Part shown: one piece after another, positions 3,247 through 36,832 of the stretch | Layout: the number at the start of each line of letters is the position of its first letter | Numbering within the stretch: the first letter of the stretch is position 1 | DNA from: Molanna angustata | Taxonomy: Eukaryota > Arthropoda > Insecta > Trichoptera > Molannidae | Length of the DNA stretch: 64,000 nucleotides | NCBI GenBank assembly: GCA_963576475.1 | Contig: OY754967.1 | Location: forward strand, 20,190,414 to 20,254,413 | Direction of reading: 5' to 3' | The notes under the pieces: generated by a model | The model's input: the letters and a program-made list of their open reading frames with translations, nothing else | What the model was told of the DNA's origin: nothing | Database searches by the model: none | Translations under genes and position numbers: made by a program

Positions 3247-3425
3247 GATGGATCGATGGCAGAACGGTTAGTGCGCTGGGCTAGTAATCCAGTGGTCGCG
3301 AGTTCAAATCCTGCCTCGACCGATTTCGTTCGCCTATAGCACAAGCATTTATTTGCTTATTTTAGGGAACGTAGGAAGATGTATATGTACTTGTTTAACA
3401 ATGACATATTCATTTATTAACAAAA
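3247..3425 (+). mobile_element. SINE family A, tRNA-Thr-like head
   Basis: The head (about 3252-3324) folds as a tRNA. A box-A-like TGGCAGAACGGTTAGTGC leads to an anticodon stem CTGGG/TCCAG around a 7-base loop that would read AGT (Thr). A box-B-like GAGTTCAAATCC follows. The body has GATTTCGTTCGCCTATAGCACAAGC, then an A-rich end. A possible 9-base duplication ATAATGAAT lies on both sides. Related copies are at 24428, 35435, 37020 (-), 50385, 51418 and 55420 (-). It sits in the centre of the foldback element. Confidence 0.75.
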
Positions 3426-11554: not shown

Positions 11555-12243
11555 TTGAAAATTTGTATCTATGTATGTATCATGTATGTGTTGAATGCGC
11601 TCCTAAACCGTTCAACCGAGTGCGATGAAACTTTGGTGAGTTGTCGAGAGTATGCCCGGGATGGTTTCTGGATCAAAAAATTTTAACTTCTTCTTCTTCT
11701 TCATCGGGTAATAGGTCATTTTACCTATGAAGGTGGACTATCCTGAGAACCGTTCATCCGATCGCAATGAAACTTTGGTGAATTGTCGAGCGTATGACCG
11801 GGACCTACTGAAGGGACGGGAGGTACTAAAGGGTCTGAAGGGACGGGAGTAACTGAAGGGACGGGAGTAACTGAAGGGACGGGAGTAACTGAAGGGTCGG
11901 GAGTAACTGAAGGGACGGGAGTAACAGAAGCGTCGGGAGTAACTGAAGGGACGGGAGTAACTGAAGGGACGGGAGTAACTGAAGGGACGGGAGTAACTGA
12001 AGGGACGGGAGTAACTGAAGGGACGGGAGTAACTGAAGGGACGGGAGTAACTGAAGGGACGGGAGTAACTGAAGGGACGGGAGTAACTGAAGGGACGGGA
12101 GTAACTGAAGGGACGGGAGTAACTGAAGGGACGGGAGTAACTGAAGGGACGCGAGGTACTGAAGGGTCTGAAGCGACGGGTGGTAATGAAGGACCATTTT
12201 TAACTATACAGGCAATACGAAGTTTGCCGGGGGATCACTAGTA
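11555..12243 (-). mobile_element. dispersed element carrying the 18-bp minisatellite (copy 2)
   Basis: Reverse-orientation relative of the element at 6700-8247, with the same ends (GGCAAACTTCGTATTGCC near 12230, and the GTTGAATGCGCTCC end near 11590). It has the same AACGGTTC/GATAGTCC modules (two here) and about 18 minisatellite units at 11815-12180. It is shorter because both the module number and the array are reduced. Confidence 0.65.
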
Positions 12244-13401: not shown

Positions 13402-15384
13402 TGACCATGACCATATAAATCCTGATGATATCCTTTTACAAAATCATTATAAAAGATATCGAAATACTTGTAGAAATATTATAAAGGAAGCAAAAACAAA
13501 ATATTATACGGCAAAACTAAACGAATCAAATAATGATATTAAAAAAACTTGGAAAATAATCAATGAAGTAAACGATAGAACCACAATACCTCAAAAAATT
13601 AACGAAATAAATTATAATGGTGAAACGTTGACAATAGATGAAAATCCACAAAAAATCGTAAACAGCTTCAACGAATACTTTGCAAAAATCGGTAAACAAT
13701 ATGCCACTGACCTCCTTGAAACTAATAATACTACAGAGGAAATTTTGGTCTTAAATGAAAAACAACAGAATTCAAATAAATTCCCACATAAAATGATTAC
13801 ATTTGACCTGACATCTGACGTGGAAATAATATCAACTATCAATTCCATAAAACAGTCCACATCTACAGGAATAGACGGCATAGACTCAAAGCTACTAAAA
13901 AGTATAAAATTTCAAATAGCTAAACCTCTTAAACACGTTATAAACCTTAGTTTACAAAATGGCATATTTCCAGATTTTCTAAAAAAATCAGTAATAAGTC
14001 CTATTCATAAGAAAGATTCAAGAGTCGAAATTTCTAACTATAGACCAATCTCACTTCTTTCCATATTCTCAAAAATACTAGAAAAAATAGTGAAATTAAG
14101 ACTCAATAAATTCCTGGAAAAAAGTTCTATTCTTTCAAATAATCAATATGGCTTTAGACAAGGCCTGTCAACGAATGACGCAATTTCAGAATTAACAACA
14201 ATAATCGCTGATAAAGTAGACAAAGGTCAAAAATGTCTTGCCATTTTCTTGGACCTTGCAAAGGCGTTTGATACAGTCTCACATCCTCTGCTTATATCTA
14301 AACTTCACAATATTGGTATCAATGCCACAGTACTAAACTGGTTCAAAACATATCTTAGCAACCGTAAGCAAATTGTCACTATTGGAAATTATCGTAGTGA
14401 AGAGCAATATATTTCCTATGGAGTCCCGCAGGGTAGTGTACTTGGACCAGTTTTGTTTCTCATATATATTGATAATTTGTGCCGTCTTCCTGTAGATGGA
14501 AAAATAATAAGTTTTTCTGATGACACTGTACTAATAGTCAGTGAAAAAACTTGGAAACAAAGCTACAAAATAGCTGGTATGGCAATTAACAAAATAAAAA
14601 ACTGTCTGGATAACAGCCTTCTTACATTAAACAATAGTAAAACTAAATACCTTACATTTAGCGCCACACAAGCAGGGCAACCTTTACTAAATTCGATGTT
14701 TTCTATAAAAATACATTGTTGTGTACCTAGAGACTCTTGTGACTGTATCCCTTTGGAGAGAGTCACTGCTATAAATTATTTAGGTCTGACCATAGATAAT
14801 AATCTAAGATGGCAAGATCACATAGAGACACTAACAAATAGAATTCTAAAACTTGGTTATATTTATAGAAACCTTCGAAAAATTCTAAAACAAAAAACAT
14901 TAAAAACTGTCTATTTCGCATTGACTCATTCATTGATCTCATATGGAATTGTTGGTTGGGGTGGATGTGCCAAAACTATCTTGGAAAAACTTTGTCTAGC
15001 TCAAAGATGCATTGTGAAGATAATTATCCAAAAACCGTTTGATTACCCTACGGAAAACCTCTATAACGATTTTAAAGTATTTGACCCGAGACAAATATAT
15101 ATCCAGCATATACTAACTTATTTTCATAAAAATATAATACATCACCAGAAAACACAACAATCCAGAACCACACGAACAAGCATTACTTTAAATTACATAA
15201 TCCCTCATATGAAAACAACTTTCGGACAAAGAAATGCATCATTTATCGCTCCACGAATTTATAATACTTTACCTATGTCTCTCAAGGTAATAACTTCACA
15301 TACATTATTTAAAACAAGAATAAAAAAATATATAGGGAATTACGGAAGGACAGAAATTGCCCAAATATTAAACATCCAACAATA
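13402..15384 (+). pseudogene. non-LTR retrotransposon reverse transcriptase (Jockey/CR1-like), 5'-truncated
   Basis: The frame is open from about 13402 to the stop at 15384; residue numbers below count from 13628. RT motifs in order: S-N-Y-R-P-I-S-L-L near 136-144, F-L-D-L-A-K-A-F-D-T-V at 207-217, Y-G-V-P-Q-G-S-V-L-G-P at 264-274 and F-S-D-D-T at 296-300. The C-terminal part has A-P-R-I-Y-N-T-L-P, typical of these LINEs. Upstream of 13628 the same frame gives K-Y-Y-T-A-K-L and K-K-T-W-K-I-I-N-E-V, the usual linker before RT. The endonuclease domain is missing, so the copy is dead on arrival although the RT frame is intact. The usual Ala of the FADD box is Ser here. There is no real start codon; 13628 is a TTG. 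Confidence 0.85.
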
Positions 15385-15955
15385 ATTCTGAGAAATAATA
15401 TTAAATAATATAACTACACGCTACACAAGCTGGTTCGAGGAGAGGATTGTCTTTACATTGCATCTTATTTTAAGACAAATAAACTCTAAAACATTTCTCT
15501 TTTTTTATTAGATTTATTTCAAAGAAGAAATCTTGATTTTGTATTTTATTTGATTTGTGACTCAAGTCAAATAATATTGTTACTGAGTATATAGGTACGT
15601 TGAGAAGACCACAGAGCAAATTTTAATGTCAAACTGCTACATAACATAAATGACAACAACGGGTGTGCATATTATGGTAGAAATAATATTAGAATAATAA
15701 CATATCAAAATTTACTGTATCAGTTTATACTTTTGTGTTTAAGATATTGGTAACTATGTAATATTGTAATTTACTGTGTTGTGATGTCTGGTGTCCGCTC
15801 TATGTAACTATGTATAACCAAAATGTCAAATATTTGGCTTGGTAAAATTGTAAACTGCTAGCCCTAGAACAGGGTTACCTAGTTGGGCAGCAGTAATCTT
15901 CATAATAGTCTTTGTGATAAAGGTGTGAAAAATAAATAAATAAATAAATAAAATA
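15385..15955 (+). mobile_element. 3' UTR and tail of the LINE at 13402
   Basis: Non-coding, ending in GGGTTACCTAGTTGGGCAGC, GTGATAAAGG and an (AAAT)n tail near 15930-15952. The sequence CCATCACAG following the tail continues the interrupted RTE copy. A - strand 3' fragment of the same family is at 40285-40400. Confidence 0.75.
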
Positions 15956-16948: not shown

Positions 16949-17930
16949 ATAGATTATTGATCTGAATAAAATTTATACGGTTATTTGAACCATTAAATAA
17001 GAATAATTTTATTTTTATAGCGTTTTTATTCACATTAACATAGGCAACTTTTCTGCACTAAAATGTTTCAAAATTTAAAAAAAATCTCATTTTCGACCCA
17101 CCCTAGAAAGAATAATTCAGATCCAATTATTCAGATCCAATTAATTACTAGATTAACTCAGAACCGACTAATCCAACTGTCGATTCGTTCATGAGAATTC
17201 AATTCTCTGAATGAATCGACATTATTGAGCCAAGATGCGTATACGAAGGAACATGTTGTATGGCGTAGTTGACTTTTTGCATGCTAATAACACCAACTAG
17301 AGGCCTCGCAGCATATATGTTCCCATACATGGATTTACTCAGAATTTGGAGTAGAACATTTTATGTGAGTTTTGTGTGTCTGTGTGTCTGTCTGTCCCCC
17401 CCTTATAACTTTTGATCCGATCAATTTACAGATCTCAAAATTTATAAACAGTAATGGGCCTACAAAACTTTTATACTCAGAATGGTGAATTTTTGTTTCC
17501 GTCAGGGGTTATCAACTTTTGAATTTTTGGTTTATTTTCCATGTATCTCAGACACCACCATAAAAGCTCGAGCGCTAAAAATTGGTATAAACATAGACAA
17601 ATATAAAATCTCAAATTGATTTTTTTTTTTAAATTCCAGGGTTTCTCAAACATTTTTTATTGAAAAAATACTTTTTTATGATAAATTTATGAGTTTAAAT
17701 GCCTATATTTCCAATTTTTTTAAAAATATCGAAAAAAGCCGAAACACCCCAACTGATAATTTAATTTTCTATAAAAAATATGAAATTGTATAAGCACATC
17801 TCAAATTTTTTTTAACAATTTTTATAAAAATTGAATTTTGTGTCGACATTGCTTCATACAATTTGTATGTCAGTAGCCTACACACAATATCTAAGAAGAC
17901 TTAATAGTTTATACTAATCTCCAAACAATT

Positions 17931-17996
17931 TATTTCTATTTAAATTTTCAATTTAAATAGAAATAGTACTTAATTTCATAACACTGCCTCCCTCTT
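17931..17996 (-). repeat. polypurine tract and truncated 3' LTR
   Basis: After the pol stop the - strand reads AGAGGGAGGCAG (17995-17984), then TGTTATGAAATTAAG, the LTR start, at 17983. The LTR copy stops after 53 bases identical to the 5' LTR, directly after the 33-base hairpin. The remaining 162 bases of the 215-bp LTR are absent. Confidence 0.8.
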
Positions 17997-20900
17997 AGTT
18001 CAGTTCGTCCCGAACAGAATTCTCTAGATGAATAAATCGGCATTTTGAACCTTCTCTACAGTGAGATGCTTTGAAAAAGTAACATGGTAAACTTTTTTTT
18101 ATATTTTTACTGTATCTTGGATTATAGCAGCAAACTAGAACATTAATTCCAGTATTATGAAAAATCTCTTCTATCATATTCCGAACCACTTTCCAATCCA
18201 TACCATCACTGATCTTTGGAATGCCGAGCTTCATAAGATTCAACTGTAACATTTGATCCCGCATACTTCGGAGACAGTTCCACATCTGAGCATACTCTGC
18301 TCGTTCCTCAGACGTTTCCTTATTCGTCATGTAGAATAAATGCTGTTTTCCATGCTGTGAATGGACCGCTTCTCCAATCTTCAGATTCTTGGCTTTTAGC
18401 TCATATAACATCCCATACTTTCTCATGATAACTTTGGCTATACCACTAGTCATCTTCATGTCTTGAGCCACACAGTAAGCTAAAACATTATCTTCTGGGA
18501 TATCGAAGAGGTCTTGCTCAATTTCCACAGTCACACCATGGCGAGTGCGTCGATAAGGAGTCATCATGAATTCCTCGAAGGTCTTTTCTTCACTTTGGAC
18601 ATTGCAAACTTGAGCAACTGGATTTTTTTCCTCATCCTTGTTATCACCTAAAAAGGGAGCCAGGCGATTGAAATGTACCACTCTTGGCTTCCCATTTGGT
18701 TTTCTTCGTATACGATAAACCACATCATTAATCCTTTTGATCACTTCATACGGTCCTTCCCAGGATTTCTGAAGCTTTGGTGAGTAGCCTCGTCGTCGTT
18801 GTGGATTAAATAACCAAACCAAGTCTCCAGCCTGATAACCACCTTCCACAGCTTTAATGTCGTATCGCTCCTTCATCTTGTCACTAGCTACTTGAATATT
18901 GGACCGTACACGGTCATGTATAGCATTCATTTTCCTCCGAAGATCTGACACATAATCTTCTCCAACTAGATCTTCTCCAGGCTTAGATCCATACTGCAGG
19001 TCGCAAGGTAACCGTAACTCACGGCCAAAAATCACACTTGCCGGTGTTTGCCCTGTTGTCTCATGAATTGCTGCTCGATAAGCTAATAAGAACAAGTGGA
19101 TGTATTCGTCCCAATCCTTCTGGTGATCGGACACTGCTTTTGACAAAAATCTTCCAATTGTTCGATTCATTCGCTCCACCATTCCATCCGACTGTGGATG
19201 CAAAGCAGTTGTTCTCGTCTTTCGAATTCCTAATGCTTCACAAATTCCCTGGAATACGGCTGATTCAAAGTTTCTTCCCTGGTCCGAGTGTAACTCCAAT
19301 GGTACTCCAAAACGACTTATCAGTTCCCTTACCAAGACTTCAGCAACAGTGGTAGCTTCTTGATTCGGTAGTGCATAGGCTTCTGTCCATTTACTAAAAT
19401 AGTCCATTGCTACCAGAATATATTTATTCCCTCTTTCTGTTGTGGGAAACGGCCCCGCTATGTCAATGGCTATCCTTTCAAATGGGCTACCAACATTATA
19501 CTGCCTCATTGGCGCACGCCTTCGTTTCTGAGGTCCGTTTGAAGTGGCACAAGTTACACATCTTCTACACCAATCTTTTACATCTCCATTGTAATTGACC
19601 CAATAAAAACGTTGACGAATTTTTTCTGTGGTTTTTTTAACTCCCAAGTGTCCCCCAGACACATCATTGTGAAGCAGTTTAAGAACTTCAGGAATTCTCT
19701 TCCTTGGAATCAATAGTTGTTGTCTCTGCTGTGTTCCATCTTCATTCTCCAATACACGCTTTAACAACCCATTTTCCACGACAATGGATTGCCACTGAGC
19801 CCAGTATGACTTAATATTTGGAGATAGTGAAGCTATTTCTTCCCATAAAGGTCTTTGATCATTTTCCTTCCACTGCATTACAAACTTGAGATCTGGGTCT
19901 TCCAATTGGTCTGCTCGTATTTCATCATCTTGCCAAAAATTGTCAACGACCGTGGTTCTACAAGCTATAAAAAACTTTTCCTCAGCCTTATTACAGTGCT
20001 GGCAATCCTCTGGACATGGTCGCCTTGACAGTGCATCGGCATTTCTATGATGAAGTCCGGCTCGATGTTCAGAATCATAGTCATATTCTTGCAATCTCTC
20101 TATCCATCTTGCCACTTGACCTTCAGGATTCTTGAATCGCAAAAGCCACACAAGTGCCGAGTGATCTGTCCTTAAAAGAAATTTCCGTCCATATAAATAC
20201 TTGCGAAAGTGCTCAACTGACTTGATAACAGCAAGCAATTCTCTTCGTGTTACACAGTAATTGCGTTCTGGTTTCGACAATACTTTACTGAAGTAAGCAA
20301 TCACGCGTTCTGCCCCATCTTGTACTTGGGAGAGCACACTTCCGATACCAACGTTACTTGCATCTGTATCCAGAATAAACATTCCTTCAGCTCGAGGATA
20401 ACTCAAAACCGGAGAATTAATTAGAACCTGTTTTAATTCTTCAAATGCATGTTGGCACTTGAAATCCCATATGAATTCACTGCTTTCCTCCGTGAGTTTT
20501 GTCAGTGGCTTTGCGATGTCAGCAAAGCCTGGAACAAATCGTCGATAGTAGGTACTCAGACCCAAAAAGCTTCTTACTTCATGTTTGTCTTTAAGTACTG
20601 GCCAATCTCGAACAGCTTTAATCTTCTCAGGATCTACTGCTACTCCCTCCTCAGAGACAACATGACCTAGATAGTTGACTTGCTTTCGGAACAATATACA
20701 TTTCTTGCAATTGAGTTTAAGGTTGGCCAACCTCAATCGTGAAAATACCTGTTCCAAATTTCCTAAATGTTCTTCAAAATGCTTCCCAAGTACGATGATG
20801 TCATCTAAGTATACCAAACAGGTCTCCCACGATAATCCTCTTAGCACACTTTCCATTAGTCGTTCAAACGTAGCCGGTGCATTGCAAAGTCCAAATGGCA

Positions 20901-22170
20901 TCACTTTGAATTGCCACAATCCACTTCCAACAGAAAACGCCGTTTTTTCTCTATCCTTGGGTTCCAATCCAACCTGCCAATAACCACTCTTTAGATCCAA
21001 AGTTGAGAAGATCTTACAACCAGCCAATGTATCTAGGGTGTCATCGATTCGAGGCAGTGGATAACTATCCTTCTTAGTTACATTATTCAATAAGCGAAAG
21101 TCCACACAGAACCGAGTTGAGCCATCTTTTTTTTTAACTAACACTACTGGTGAACACCATGGGCTGCTTGATGGTTCAATAACGCTATCCCTTTCCATGT
21201 CTTGAATAATTTGATCTGCTTCCGCCCGCTTTGCTAATGGTAGCCTTCTAGGTAATTGGCGGATAGGCCTTGCGTCACCCGTATCTATTTGATGTTGAAC
21301 AACATTGGTTCTTCCTTTAGAAAGACTCGCATTCTCAAAAACATCTTGATAATGAGCAATGAGGTATCTAATTTGTTTGCTTTGTTCTTTGGTAAGTTCC
21401 TTACAAGCATCTTTTACAAAGTCTTCAAGATGTTTTGGTACATCCTCTGAAGAAACTTGTGCGATGCAGGCATTTTGTGTTACTGATGAAACTGATGAAC
21501 ACACACTTAAATAAGCTCCTTTTTTGACAGTTACTGGATATTCATTTATGTTCATTAATCTGACTAAAATTTCCTTTTGATTTTGAATCAGTGCTCTTGC
21601 AATTAATACTCCTTTTCCTGCTTCATTGTTGGCGTTGGACTCCACAACCAAAACATGTCCATTCGGGATAACACAGTCTAAATTGACTCGTACTAACATC
21701 TCACTTTGTTTTGGAATAGTTACAACATCCGCTGCAAGAACACGTGTAGAAAATTCCTCACGCTCTTGCACGAGAACATCTTCATCTCCAATTTTCAAAG
21801 ATCGCCTCTTTAGATCCAACTGGAATCCATATTTCGCCATTATGTCCATTCCGAGAATAACTTCCTCCTCTATATTCGCCACTAGCACCTGATGATCGAA
21901 GATAGAACTACCAATTTGAAAGTTGGCATATGTCTCACCACATATAGATGCCGACTCCCCAGTAGCTGTTCGTAATGTCCATTTAGTTGGTGTAATACAC
22001 TTTTTGTTATAAAGCAAATCTGGTCTCATGATTGTCATCGTTGCTCCAGTATCCAGCAAAAGTTTCAAATTCTTTCCATTTACTTTGCCATTTATAAACA
22101 TACTGGTATCTCGACCACTGAATGATGCAACAACTGCAGATCTCTTTGAGGCATTGGTAATGTAGGTCAA
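17995..22170 (-). CDS. pol: Gypsy Pol polyprotein: protease, RT, RNase H, integrase, macrodomain, CCCH finger
   Basis: This is a 1391-residue frame with no break. Protease: D-T-G-A at 40-43. Reverse transcriptase about 300-500, with F-S-T-L-D-L-K-S-G-Y and the Y-L-D-D catalytic box at 454-457. RNase H about 590-715, with D601, E644 and D669. Integrase: zinc site H834, H841, C871, C874; catalytic D903, D963 and E999 with 35 residues between the last two; GPY/F module near 1137-1154. Ordinary Gypsy Pols end soon after. This one continues about 220 residues: a TARG1-like macrodomain (about 1212-1352) and a CCCH finger (C1363, C1371, C1377, H1381), then stops at 17995. The first listed codon is TTG; the frame is open upstream into gag, so Pol is probably made by -1 frameshifting near the gag stop, though I cannot assign a canonical slippery heptamer. 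All catalytic residues checked are present. Confidence 0.95.
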   Translation of the reverse strand: MTYITNASKRSAVVASFSGRDTSMFINGKVNGKNLKLLLDTGATMTIMRPDLLYNKKCITPTKWTLRTATGESASICGETYANFQIGSSIFDHQVLVANIEEEVILGMDIMAKYGFQLDLKRRSLKIGDEDVLVQEREEFSTRVLAADVVTIPKQSEMLVRVNLDCVIPNGHVLVVESNANNEAGKGVLIARALIQNQKEILVRLMNINEYPVTVKKGAYLSVCSSVSSVTQNACIAQVSSEDVPKHLEDFVKDACKELTKEQSKQIRYLIAHYQDVFENASLSKGRTNVVQHQIDTGDARPIRQLPRRLPLAKRAEADQIIQDMERDSVIEPSSSPWCSPVVLVKKKDGSTRFCVDFRLLNNVTKKDSYPLPRIDDTLDTLAGCKIFSTLDLKSGYWQVGLEPKDREKTAFSVGSGLWQFKVMPFGLCNAPATFERLMESVLRGLSWETCLVYLDDIIVLGKHFEEHLGNLEQVFSRLRLANLKLNCKKCILFRKQVNYLGHVVSEEGVAVDPEKIKAVRDWPVLKDKHEVRSFLGLSTYYRRFVPGFADIAKPLTKLTEESSEFIWDFKCQHAFEELKQVLINSPVLSYPRAEGMFILDTDASNVGIGSVLSQVQDGAERVIAYFSKVLSKPERNYCVTRRELLAVIKSVEHFRKYLYGRKFLLRTDHSALVWLLRFKNPEGQVARWIERLQEYDYDSEHRAGLHHRNADALSRRPCPEDCQHCNKAEEKFFIACRTTVVDNFWQDDEIRADQLEDPDLKFVMQWKENDQRPLWEEIASLSPNIKSYWAQWQSIVVENGLLKRVLENEDGTQQRQQLLIPRKRIPEVLKLLHNDVSGGHLGVKKTTEKIRQRFYWVNYNGDVKDWCRRCVTCATSNGPQKRRRAPMRQYNVGSPFERIAIDIAGPFPTTERGNKYILVAMDYFSKWTEAYALPNQEATTVAEVLVRELISRFGVPLELHSDQGRNFESAVFQGICEALGIRKTRTTALHPQSDGMVERMNRTIGRFLSKAVSDHQKDWDEYIHLFLLAYRAAIHETTGQTPASVIFGRELRLPCDLQYGSKPGEDLVGEDYVSDLRRKMNAIHDRVRSNIQVASDKMKERYDIKAVEGGYQAGDLVWLFNPQRRRGYSPKLQKSWEGPYEVIKRINDVVYRIRRKPNGKPRVVHFNRLAPFLGDNKDEEKNPVAQVCNVQSEEKTFEEFMMTPYRRTRHGVTVEIEQDLFDIPEDNVLAYCVAQDMKMTSGIAKVIMRKYGMLYELKAKNLKIGEAVHSQHGKQHLFYMTNKETSEERAEYAQMWNCLRSMRDQMLQLNLMKLGIPKISDGMDWKVVRNMIEEIFHNTGINVLVCCYNPRYSKNIKKSLPCYFFKASHCREGSKCRFIHLENSVRDELN
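18022..18093 (-). CDS. CCCH zinc finger at Pol C-terminus
   Basis: Pol residues 1360-1383 hold C-x7-C-x5-C-x3-H (C1363, C1371, C1377, H1381) with aromatic residues Y1364/F1365 and F1379, the usual CCCH RNA-binding layout. It lies 11 residues after the macrodomain and just before the stop. CCCH fingers pair with ADP-ribosylation modules in PARP12/PARP13-type antiviral proteins, but here the partner is a hydrolase-type macrodomain. Confidence 0.75.
18115..18537 (-). CDS. macrodomain, TARG1/OARD1-like (part of Pol)
   Basis: Residues about 1212-1352 of Pol. It opens with I-E-Q-D-L-F-D, then L-A-Y-C-V-A-Q-D-M-K-M-T-S-G-I-A, which lines up with L-A-H-C-I-S-E-D-C-R-M-G-A-G-I-A of human TARG1. The segment ending in Y-M-T-N-K places K1284 on the catalytic Lys84, and G-M-D places D1325 on catalytic Asp125. 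The tail M-I-E-E-I-F also matches. TARG1 removes ADP-ribose from acidic residues and from nucleic acid ends. By homology this module could reverse ADP-ribosylation of element or host targets; its activity is inferred. It could instead only bind ADP-ribose. Confidence 0.85.
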
Positions 22171-22196: not shown

Positions 22197-23396
22197 TTAG
22201 TTTTCCTGTGGCTGTTGCTGTTGCGTTGTTGCTTCATTTGGACACCGATTACGTAGATGTCCAGCTCGTCCACAACCCCAGCAGCGAAACTGTCTTTTTC
22301 TTCCTTGCAATGCCTTCATCACCTTTTCGACAATGCATTCGATGAGTTTTTGATTCTCTTCAACGGCCTCAACAACGCGGGTTTGAGCATGACCTCGTAA
22401 AGATTTTTTTATAGATTCAAATTCGAGTGCCTGGGTTAGAGCGTCACTCAAAGTTTGTGGTCTAGCTAGTTTTACAGCTTGTTGTGTCTCATTTGCCCAC
22501 AATCCATCCAAGAACTTTTCTACTGCAAGGCTTTCACACACATCATCAGGAACCGTAGGGTATGCATATCTAATTAGACGCGCTATATCCGCCTCAAATT
22601 CCTGGAGAGTTTCATTAGATTTCTGATTACGATTCTTAAGTTGTGACCTGTAAAACTGTTCCATGTGCTTATGTCCAAATCGCATCTCAAGTCTCTCAAT
22701 CAACAATTTTAAATCTCGTCGCTCAGCTAGAGGAATTGTCTCCAAAACTTTTAAAGCATCACCTCGTAATGATACACTCAACACTGAGGCCTTTCTTGTC
22801 ATGGACCAGCCATTTATCATGGCCACTGTCTCGAACAATGTTAAATATTCTTCCCAGGGGCATTTTCCATCAAAGGTTGGCATATCATTTCGCACGCACT
22901 CCACTGTTGGTACTCTTGTATCTTCTACACACTTAAAATTTGTATCTACAGCTGAATTTTGCTCGGAATTCATTGGCGTGATTGAAGGAAGCACTTGATT
23001 CTCCAAAACTTTCATCTGTTTAGTTAATTCATTTATCTTCTCATCAAAGGTCATAGAATAATTCTGGAATTTCTTTTCTATAGTATTTGAATGCTTTTGA
23101 AGCATCGCTACTTCTCCTTTGATTTCTTTAATTTCTCCTTTTATATCTCTGGAATGTTCTTGAAACTTCTCTTCTATGTCTCTGGAATGTTCTTTTAAGA
23201 CTTGACAAAGATCGTTGTTAGAGCAAGGCATTTCAAAAAGGTATGTGTCTGGATCCTCACCTACTTCTTGCATCACTTTTCTCAATCGTAGTTGAAGTGC
23301 ATTTTTATTTCCTGATGTATCAGCGTCTCTCTCCTCCAACTCATGTTTTAAATCAACCACTTTCAACTCTAAAAGAGTTATTTTTTTTGATGCCAT
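22197..23396 (-). CDS. gag: Gypsy Gag polyprotein with SAP, coiled coil, capsid and CCHC knuckle
   Basis: The 399-residue structural protein should build the intracellular particle and package the element RNA. Residues about 8-42 look like an SAP domain (L-K-V-V-D-L-K-H-E-L, then T-S-G-N-K-N-A-L), a DNA-binding helix pair found in several insect Gypsy Gags. Residues 60-136 are a Lys/Glu-rich coiled coil with two E-H-S-R-D-I repeats. Residues about 172-330 resemble retrotransposon Gag/capsid (P-T-F-D-G-K-C-P-W-E-E-Y-L, Q-F-Y-R-S-Q-L, E-T-L-Q-E-F-E-A). A CCHC knuckle is C372, C375, H380, C385. A Gln-rich tail ends the protein. The ATG at 23396 is the first after the LTR in good context. The stop is 26 bases before the first listed pol codon, and the pol frame is -1 relative to gag and already open across the end of gag. 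Confidence 0.92.
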   Translation of the reverse strand: MASKKITLLELKVVDLKHELEERDADTSGNKNALQLRLRKVMQEVGEDPDTYLFEMPCSNNDLCQVLKEHSRDIEEKFQEHSRDIKGEIKEIKGEVAMLQKHSNTIEKKFQNYSMTFDEKINELTKQMKVLENQVLPSITPMNSEQNSAVDTNFKCVEDTRVPTVECVRNDMPTFDGKCPWEEYLTLFETVAMINGWSMTRKASVLSVSLRGDALKVLETIPLAERRDLKLLIERLEMRFGHKHMEQFYRSQLKNRNQKSNETLQEFEADIARLIRYAYPTVPDDVCESLAVEKFLDGLWANETQQAVKLARPQTLSDALTQALEFESIKKSLRGHAQTRVVEAVEENQKLIECIVEKVMKALQGRKRQFRCWGCGRAGHLRNRCPNEATTQQQQPQEN

Positions 23397-23460: not shown

Positions 23461-23480
23461 ATACCCCACACCTGACACCA
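23461..23480 (-). promoter_or_regulatory. primer-binding-like site
   Basis: Two bases after the 5' LTR the - strand reads TGGTGTCAGGTGTGGGGTAT. The position and TGGTGTCAG start are like those of insect Gypsy elements, where a tRNA 3' end primes minus-strand synthesis. The tRNA species was not assigned. Confidence 0.55.
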
Positions 23481-23482
23481 AA

Positions 23483-23697
23483 TGTACCGAAATTTATATT
23501 TATTTATTTTATTATGGTTCAAAGTCTTATTTATTTTTACAATTTATATTTCTACAATTTATATTTTTACAAGGTTTGTCTAGTTTTTCCAACTCACTAC
23601 TCAAATCTTTTGTTTTCATTTTTCTTGGGTTCTTATTTTCAAAATATTTCTATTTAAATTTTCAATTTAAATAGAAATAGTACTTAATTTCATAACA
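23483..23697 (-). repeat. 5' LTR of the Gypsy element
   Basis: On the - strand it begins TGTTATGAAATTAAG and ends CGGTACA, 215 bp, a TG...CA form. It contains a hairpin with 15-base arms (ATTTCTATTTAAATT, 3-base loop) at bases 20-52 of the LTR. The right boundary is fixed by the uninterrupted repeat D. Confidence 0.75.
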
Positions 23698-26689: not shown

Positions 26690-27200
26690 AGTGTGCATAT
26701 TGTATGTATGCATGTATGTACAAATTAATGTTTTATGAAGAATTTATACATAATGTTTTACTATATTTCCTTATAACAGTGTTAATATTGTATGTATGTA
26801 CAGCGTGCTTATTGTGTGTGTATGTATAAATTAATGTTTTATGAACATTTGTACTTAATGTTTTACTACATTTACTGCTACAATGTACATATTGTATTTA
26901 TTTACAGCGTGCATATTATATGTATGTACAAATTAATGTTTTATGAACATTTGTACTTAATGTTTTACTACATTTACTGCTACAATGTACATATTGTATT
27001 TATTTACAGCGTGCATATTGTATGTATGTACAAATTAATGTTTTATGAACATTTGTACTTAATGTTTTACTACATTTACTGCTACAATGTACATATTGTA
27101 TTTATTTACAGCGTGCATATTGTATGTATGTACAAATTAATGTTTTATGAAAAATTTGTATTTAATGTTTTACTATTACAGCACCACACATGCATATTAT
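26690..27200. repeat. 102-bp tandem array, about 4.5 copies
   Basis: Unit starts GCGTGCATATTGTATGTATG at 26907, 27009 and 27111 (exact 102-base spacing) with a diverged unit from 26803 and a partial one before it. As 102 is 34 codons the array stays open as a repeated 34-residue frame rich in Tyr, Ile and Val. It lacks coding signs beyond the repeat itself. Confidence 0.9.
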
Positions 27201-28244
27201 ATTTATGTGTAAATTTCTATTTTTGGCTTTATTTAAATTTAAGAGTGTTAAATAATGTTGTTTTTCCGGAGGAACCCTAAATAAATTGATACATTTTATG
27301 ATTGGTAAATATTATGTAGTTAGATACAATTTCCTGAAAAACGATTTCCTCTAACAAACCATTAGTTGGTTCAAGATATCAGTATAGAGATTTCTCGGTT
27401 GGTAGGTCTTATAGATGACAGAATAAAATTCGTACCTACGTATTTTCACATTTCAAAATTTATTGCGTTCATTAATATCTCATTTTTATGTTGCCCTTTT
27501 TCCAAATTGGGATTCGTATTTTTTCTTTTATTTCTTTGAACATCAGACTACTTTCTTATATATTGAAGAATTTCATTATGCGTATTGGTACCTAATAGCG
27601 CACAATACGAAAAGATAAAAATATTTCCGATAATCTTTTTCGTACAATGAAGGAATAAATCATCAGCCGCATAACGAAACTTCCATAAAACTGACAACCT
27701 GTGACCGTAAATTTCACCGGATTCAGAATATTGCGAATTAATTTTGCACACCCTTTTACCGTTTACCTCCTCCCGTAATTCCAACATCGGATTGAACTGA
27801 ACTTCTTTTCATTCTCTGCGTCACGATTTTCAAGGATGAACGACCAATTACTTGGCTTTTGAAAATTCCTTTGTGTCACCCAAAGAAGGTTTTCCACTCG
27901 AATTTCACACATGGATAATAAGCAGCCAAATGGTGCTGTTTTTCAATTTACTTTAATTCAAATATCCACAAAATGAGGTATTGTGTTTTTATTAGATATT
28001 AACATGGCATGAAACATAAGACGCATAAACAACCTAAGAGCCTGTATGAGAAGTAGCATGGATGTAAAGGAAGCCTGGAATATGTGCAAAAGTAGAGGAG
28101 TATGGCGTTTGGTTCTCTCTGCTTATCCCATAAGGGACATGGCATGTATGTATATTTGAAATTGATATTAAAATATTACTCCTGATTAAATCACAACGTT
28201 TTATGAATAAATCATTAATTTATATAATTAAATAAATAATAAGA
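27201..28244. other. no gene recognised
   Basis: A 79-codon - strand frame at 27548-27787 has more even composition than its surroundings (L-R-E-E-V-N-G-K-R-V near its start) but no domain I recognise; it could be a decayed transposon piece. Confidence 0.35.
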
Positions 28245-36699: not shown

Positions 36700-36832
36700 C
36701 CGATATGATATTAATCATCTCACAGATCCAGACTGAAAACACATTTAAAAACTGTGTCTCCACCGGGAATTGAACCCGGGACCTTTGGTCCAGTAGTCAA
36801 ATACCCAACCAACTGAGCCACGAAGGCCGACG
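36700..36832 (-). mobile_element. SINE family B, 5' half
   Basis: Head GTCGGCCTTCGTGGCTCAGT with an intact-looking box B (CCCGGGTTCAATTCCCGG); body cut after the GAGATGATTAATATC block. Confidence 0.7.

Follow-up and report, generated by a model that had tools for sequence, protein, structure and literature searches.

A TARG1-like macrodomain follows the integrase in a Gypsy retrotransposon of Molanna angustata and recurs within Pol in other Gypsy families

Results

A Gypsy Pol continues in frame into a macrodomain

We analysed a 64,000-nucleotide stretch of the genome of the trichopteran Molanna angustata (assembly GCA_963576475.1, contig OY754967.1, positions 20,190,414 to 20,254,413), referred to here in its full length as the window, whose coordinates are used below. 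Its minus strand carries a recently very active Gypsy-type (Ty3, Metaviridae) long terminal repeat (LTR) retrotransposon. The Pol frame (17995..22170, with the stop codon at 17995-17997) encodes 1391 amino acids comprising protease, reverse transcriptase (RT), RNase H, integrase, a macrodomain and a CCCH zinc finger, as assigned with Pfam on pieces of the frame. The integrase is represented by its H2C2 zinc-binding and rve core domains (19201..19710; Integrase_H2C2 E 7.9e-20, rve E 5.4e-16) and by a p58_C / GPY-F C-terminal end (18655..18720; E 8.7e-6, just under the curated cut-off), which directly precedes the tail. A preliminary description of this DNA had proposed that the frame runs past the integrase into a TARG1-like macrodomain, and both sequence and predicted fold confirm this: the TARG1/OARD1-like domain occupies 18124..18534 (residues 63-199 of the tail protein P0001), and among solved macrodomains TARG1 is its nearest relative in both respects. 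It is followed by a CCCH zinc finger that had gone unmentioned (18028..18084), found by Pfam (E 0.0013, under the curated cut-off) and in the tail alignment; its spacing, C-x7-C-x5-C-x3-H, lies within the general pattern C-x7-9-C-x5-C-x3-H. The Pfam matches of the tail include no chromodomain, the macrodomain standing in its place.

The codon of Pol K1284 (18319..18321; K134 of P0001) aligns with the catalytic Lys84 of TARG1, as described previously. The assignment of D1325 (18196..18198; D175 of P0001) to Asp125 depends on where a short deletion in this loop is placed: phmmer and L-INS-i put it after the aspartate, which makes D1325 the partner of Asp125 and keeps Gly123, whereas a MAFFT alignment of the family puts it before the aspartate and pairs Asp125 with D1322 (18205-18207) instead. 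An aspartate is nearby under either alignment, yet to judge from these alignments the loop of the window copy is altered. The top viral structure matches of the macrodomain model in BFVD include predicted structures of proteins from several arthropod-associated RNA viruses, which raises the possibility that this fold serves further arthropod parasites as well; among these matches are A0A8E0KJF2 (Kadipiro virus VP8) and proteins of thrips-associated viruses.

The remainder of the element, also on the minus strand, agrees with the Gypsy/Ty3 assignment, as do the order protease, RT, RNase H and integrase and the GPY/F-type integrase end (Pfam on pieces). By eye, we recognised LTRs of the form TG...CA, a polypurine tract and a primer-binding site. 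The 5' LTR spans about 215 nucleotides (23483..23697), and its first 58 nucleotides are 97% identical to the 3' LTR, which in the window copy is cut after 58 nucleotides (17926..17983, from copy comparison). The polypurine tract (17984..17994) directly follows the Pol stop codon, and the probable primer-binding site, TGGTGTCAGGTG... (23464..23480), presumably resembles the mdg3-type tRNA-Leu site. A long 3' LTR was seen in 28 of the 30 copies whose 3' flank was inspected by eye, the exceptions being the window copy and the copy L016. The sequence that cuts the LTR in the window (17700-17925) also flanks, by eye, the LTRs of copies L020 and L030 and is apparently another interspersed repeat. 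The Gag frame (22197..23396, 399 amino acids) has a SAP domain at its N-terminus (Pfam E 1e-7), weak matches to PNMA/Ty3 capsids and a weak CCHC knuckle; SAP is a seemingly unusual partner for a Ty3-type capsid.

The tail is a regular part of a recently expanded family

The genome searched comprises 995 Mb in 131 contigs. The best-scoring 150 of 577 candidates for the tail all match it from end to end at 99-100% identity with no internal stop, and 95 of these lie in open frames of at least 1386 codons. An exact 24-mer spanning the catalytic lysine codon occurs 445 times in the genome and an exact integrase 24-mer 423 times, while the reversed controls do not occur. On contigs C1 and C2, the tail word lies 940-970 bases downstream of the integrase word in 30 of 31 cases, and a separate tail search found a tail match at the remaining one as well (C2:7982492), which argues that this integrase lineage carries the tail as a rule. 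All 29 other copies compared with the window tail share one amino-acid difference (L211V) and have 0-2 synonymous changes, pointing to a recent burst. Selection on the tail cannot be read from these copies, as they were chosen by protein score, are nearly identical and stem from a single young burst, a choice that biases the ratio of nonsynonymous to synonymous substitution (dN/dS).

Relatives of the tail occur in beetles and other public contigs

Proteins related to the tail are present in beetles and among further public contig proteins. One relative search gave 10 proteins, six of them from Aromia moschata, and a second gave 11, including three from Molorchus minor and one from Brassicogethes aeneus, beetles that belong to Cerambycidae and Nitidulidae; four proteins (P0004, P0005, P0009 and P0011) were common to both. 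P0004 is 98% identical to the window tail. The B. aeneus protein P0016, as predicted, starts at the macrodomain and has no integrase part. When Pol-length relatives were sought with an 834-amino-acid query over region 640-834, no score was obtained for any of 259 candidates, and the relatives described here are therefore all shorter predicted proteins. Three scans of viral contigs yielded no tail relative. The fusion suggests that some beetle proteins annotated as 'hypothetical' or 'C3H1-type domain-containing' are retrotransposon Pol tails.

Sixteen tails were aligned; excluded were P0013, which is a fragment, and P0020, which came from the second search, is a plain macro protein and has a loop, CGMGGL, that also appears in P0009. 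Lysine is present at the Lys84 column and aspartate at the Asp125 column in 15 of the 16 each. Several tails are near-copies, and nine distinct ones were used for conservation counts: each of the two columns is kept in eight of nine, and the pocket residues L21, F22 and P118 are invariant. Six of the eight TARG1 functional positions given in the part of PMC11488344 consulted are conserved in at least eight of the nine distinct tails, compared with 39 of the 128 other positions (Fisher P value = 0.016); those not kept are Ser35 (two serines, six alanines and one threonine) and Leu47. Tails only 35-43% identical to that of the window retain the frame and the macrodomain, and the CCCH finger is complete in 12 of all 16. 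In P0017 (JGI, a 1509-base contig), an apparent Gag and an RNase H end motif, recognised by eye, are joined to the macrodomain in a protein that omits RT and integrase; it could represent a copy with a deletion, a transcript after splicing or a gene of the host.

Other Gypsy families carry the domain between RNase H and integrase

A Pfam Macro search of the genome gave eight matches, of which five are linker domains within Gypsy frames of up to 1272 codons. The domain in L034 matches TARG1 at E 6.7e-18 and that in L038 at E 6e-13; in L034 it lies between RNase H and the integrase H2C2 domain by Pfam, and in L038 likewise by eye and BLAST. Two more families, seen on short flanking pieces, have RNase H upstream (E 2.6e-39 and 9.2e-43) and H2C2 with rve downstream (H2C2 E 9.4e-22 and 3.8e-21). 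The linker-form loci (L034-L038, L073-L080 and L085-L088; for example G000 C7:15708052-15708441) represent at least four Gypsy families other than that of the window. Relative to the window element, RT-RNase H is 50% identical in L034 and 42% in L038, and integrase 33-34%, indicating other Gypsy lineages. The frame following L034, the sole family checked for an envelope (env) gene, matches the env-type protein Baculo_F (E 8e-8), and this family therefore looks errantivirus-like.

The L034 domain was matched at 22 genomic places with E 1.3e-17 or better, and the eight fetched fall into four families with 43-55% identity. Both catalytic residues are kept in L080 (the family of L034), whereas the lysine is lost in L073 and the aspartate in L074-L078 and in L079 (the family of L038). 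Between families, dN/dS is 0.13-0.43 at a synonymous divergence (dS) of 1.4-4.5, near saturation. Loss of catalytic residues while dN/dS stays in this range points to binding over catalysis in the linker form, and at the level of sequence its fold seems to outlive catalysis.

Other features of the window

On the plus strand, a 585-amino-acid frame with an RVT_1 match (13628-15385; E 4e-39) marks a second retroelement, and a 162-amino-acid frame (26792-27280) consists mostly of 34-residue repeats (102-nucleotide spacing, 96-97% alike) and has no Pfam match. A tandem array with an 18-nucleotide period lies at 11735-12238. ARAGORN names a tRNA-Thr gene (AGT) at 3250-3322 (plus strand), which Rfam also calls a tRNA; a second tRNA match lies at 36755-36827 (minus strand), its anticodon not named by ARAGORN.

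Discussion

The in-frame fusion, its copy number, the beetle relatives, the predicted fold and the conserved pocket residues are directly supported by our data. During cDNA synthesis and integration, retroelements generate RNA-DNA ends as well as DNA with nicks and gaps, and these attract poly(ADP-ribose) polymerases (PARPs). TARG1 cleaves mono-ADP-ribose from aspartate and glutamate and from the 5' and 3' phosphates of DNA and RNA, and it binds RNA (PMC8053099, PMC11488344). We tentatively propose, giving it almost an even chance, that the integrase-tethered macrodomain-CCCH module strips mono-ADP-ribose, and acts as an ADP-ribose reader in lineages where the catalytic residues are lost. The module would travel in the particle as part of Pol or integrase, and the CCCH finger would keep it on the element RNA. 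Host PARPs would modify nicks, gaps and cDNA ends; the macrodomain would take mono-ADP-ribose off acidic side chains, and possibly also clear terminal phosphates of element RNA or cDNA ends. Such removal could protect the ends, or integrase itself, so that the integration complex stays competent.

Several observations weigh against an eraser. Ser35, which lies near the distal ribose in TARG1, is alanine in the window copy and in most tails, and the window family, the one that has spread, lacks three residues adjoining Asp125. The public contig protein P0009 has arginine at the Lys84 column and glycine at the Asp125 column, and Lys84 or Asp125 is lost in three of the four linker families examined. 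The CCCH finger is absent from P0011 and P0019, both of which have a different end, while P0016 is without its first cysteine and P0017 stops before it. Furthermore, we infer the activity and packaging of the module, and likewise its target and benefit.

The best-supported rival, which we nevertheless consider rather unlikely, is a targeting module that recognises ADP-ribose at DNA breaks or on the chromatin of the host and directs integration there, hydrolysis being secondary or lost. It owes this standing to the location of the macrodomain directly after GPY/F, where chromoviruses have their chromodomain, and to the absence of one or both catalytic residues from P0009 and three linker families; a pocket that is invariant while Ser35 is not kept also fits a reader. 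A pure reader, however, would not need the Lys84 and Asp125 that eight of nine distinct tails retain. A structural or RNA-handling role, with the macrodomain-CCCH unit serving as a nucleic-acid-binding extension for packaging or for RT or integrase assembly and ADP-ribose being irrelevant, appears less probable still. It could account for the CCCH finger in most tails and for the tolerated loss of catalytic residues in the linker form, and TARG1 does bind RNA oligomers (PMC8053099), but the positions that contact ADP-ribose are preferentially conserved. We regard it as very improbable that the tail is a chance fusion, a misassembly or a passive hitch-hiker in one lineage. The single young burst in its own genome would suit such an origin; the hundreds of tail words in that genome, the relatives in three beetles and other public contigs, and active-site positions retained at 35-43% identity speak against it. 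On the strength of copy number and relatives we reject misassembly or a single chance fusion, an explanation that the preliminary description had named as fatal to its own.

That description had also suggested that the element captured a host ADP-ribose hydrolase. Our data uphold that a Gypsy lineage carries a TARG1-type domain, which is multicopy, occurs in several hosts and conserves its active-site residues. Its reading as a host ADP-ribose hydrolase is supported in part: Ser35 is mostly lost, the loop by Asp125 is shortened in the window family and one relative, P0009, has neither catalytic residue. In a tree of 17 macrodomains, which held no insect cellular TARG1, the tails are set apart by one branch (83/84) and the linkers by another (99/97), the phage and human TARG1 forms remain unresolved, and the support for tails and linkers jointly (79/86) is not decisive. 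The macrodomain may have been captured once and then relocated, or captured twice. Searches of the genome with Pfam Macro and phage TARG1 queries found no host cellular TARG1, although an exon-split gene could be missed. Three of the eight Pfam Macro matches (L031, L032 and L033) look cellular and MACROD-like by eye, and the best 150 of 481 candidates scored for the phage TARG1 query are Gypsy tails as far as compared.

Our findings suggest a role for ADP-ribose chemistry in the conflict of hosts with retrotransposons. On a broader reading, to which we give somewhat less than an even chance, insect Gypsy elements recruited TARG1-type macrodomains at two Pol sites: behind the integrase, where a CCCH finger accompanies the domain, and, in at least four further families, one of them with an env-like frame, between RNase H and integrase. 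In that case, the ADP-ribosylation of nucleic acids or integration complexes of retroelements would amount, in insects, to a level of restriction by the host or of target selection that has gone unrecognised. The finding links LTR retrotransposons to ADP-ribose signalling, whose known contests have so far involved RNA viruses and bacterial toxins. The catalytic, altered-loop and catalytically lost forms at two Pol positions offer a natural series for asking whether PARPs restrict or guide insect retrotransposition.

Chromoviruses are Gypsy elements with a chromodomain at the integrase C-terminus, and the present element likewise has an accessory module right behind it, here a macrodomain-CCCH unit. 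The chromodomain is counted among the accessory domains of retrotransposon polyproteins in PMC6338049, where the term 'ADP-ribose' does not occur. Compared with human TARG1/OARD1 (C6orf130), a terminal ADP-ribose glycohydrolase to which it is about 29% identical, the tail is fused to integrase and CCCH and has Ser35 replaced by alanine, and the window family carries the three-residue deletion by Asp125. The DarG macrodomain and phage TARG1-like proteins are stand-alone or antitoxin proteins and not retroelement fusions. Among the matches listed by our word searches of open-licence literature, none dealt with macrodomains of Gypsy elements, in line with the earlier impression that no such lineage had been described; the novelty is narrowed by the macro-domain open reading frames of fish epsilon-like endogenous retroviruses (PMC4977317, citing Basta et al. 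2009), which are likewise retroelements with an acquired macrodomain. By their description, with which rather than with sequence our comparison was made, those are additional reading frames in vertebrate retroviruses, whereas here the macrodomain is fused in frame to the integrase, together with a CCCH finger, in a Gypsy element, and in other families is placed between RNase H and integrase.
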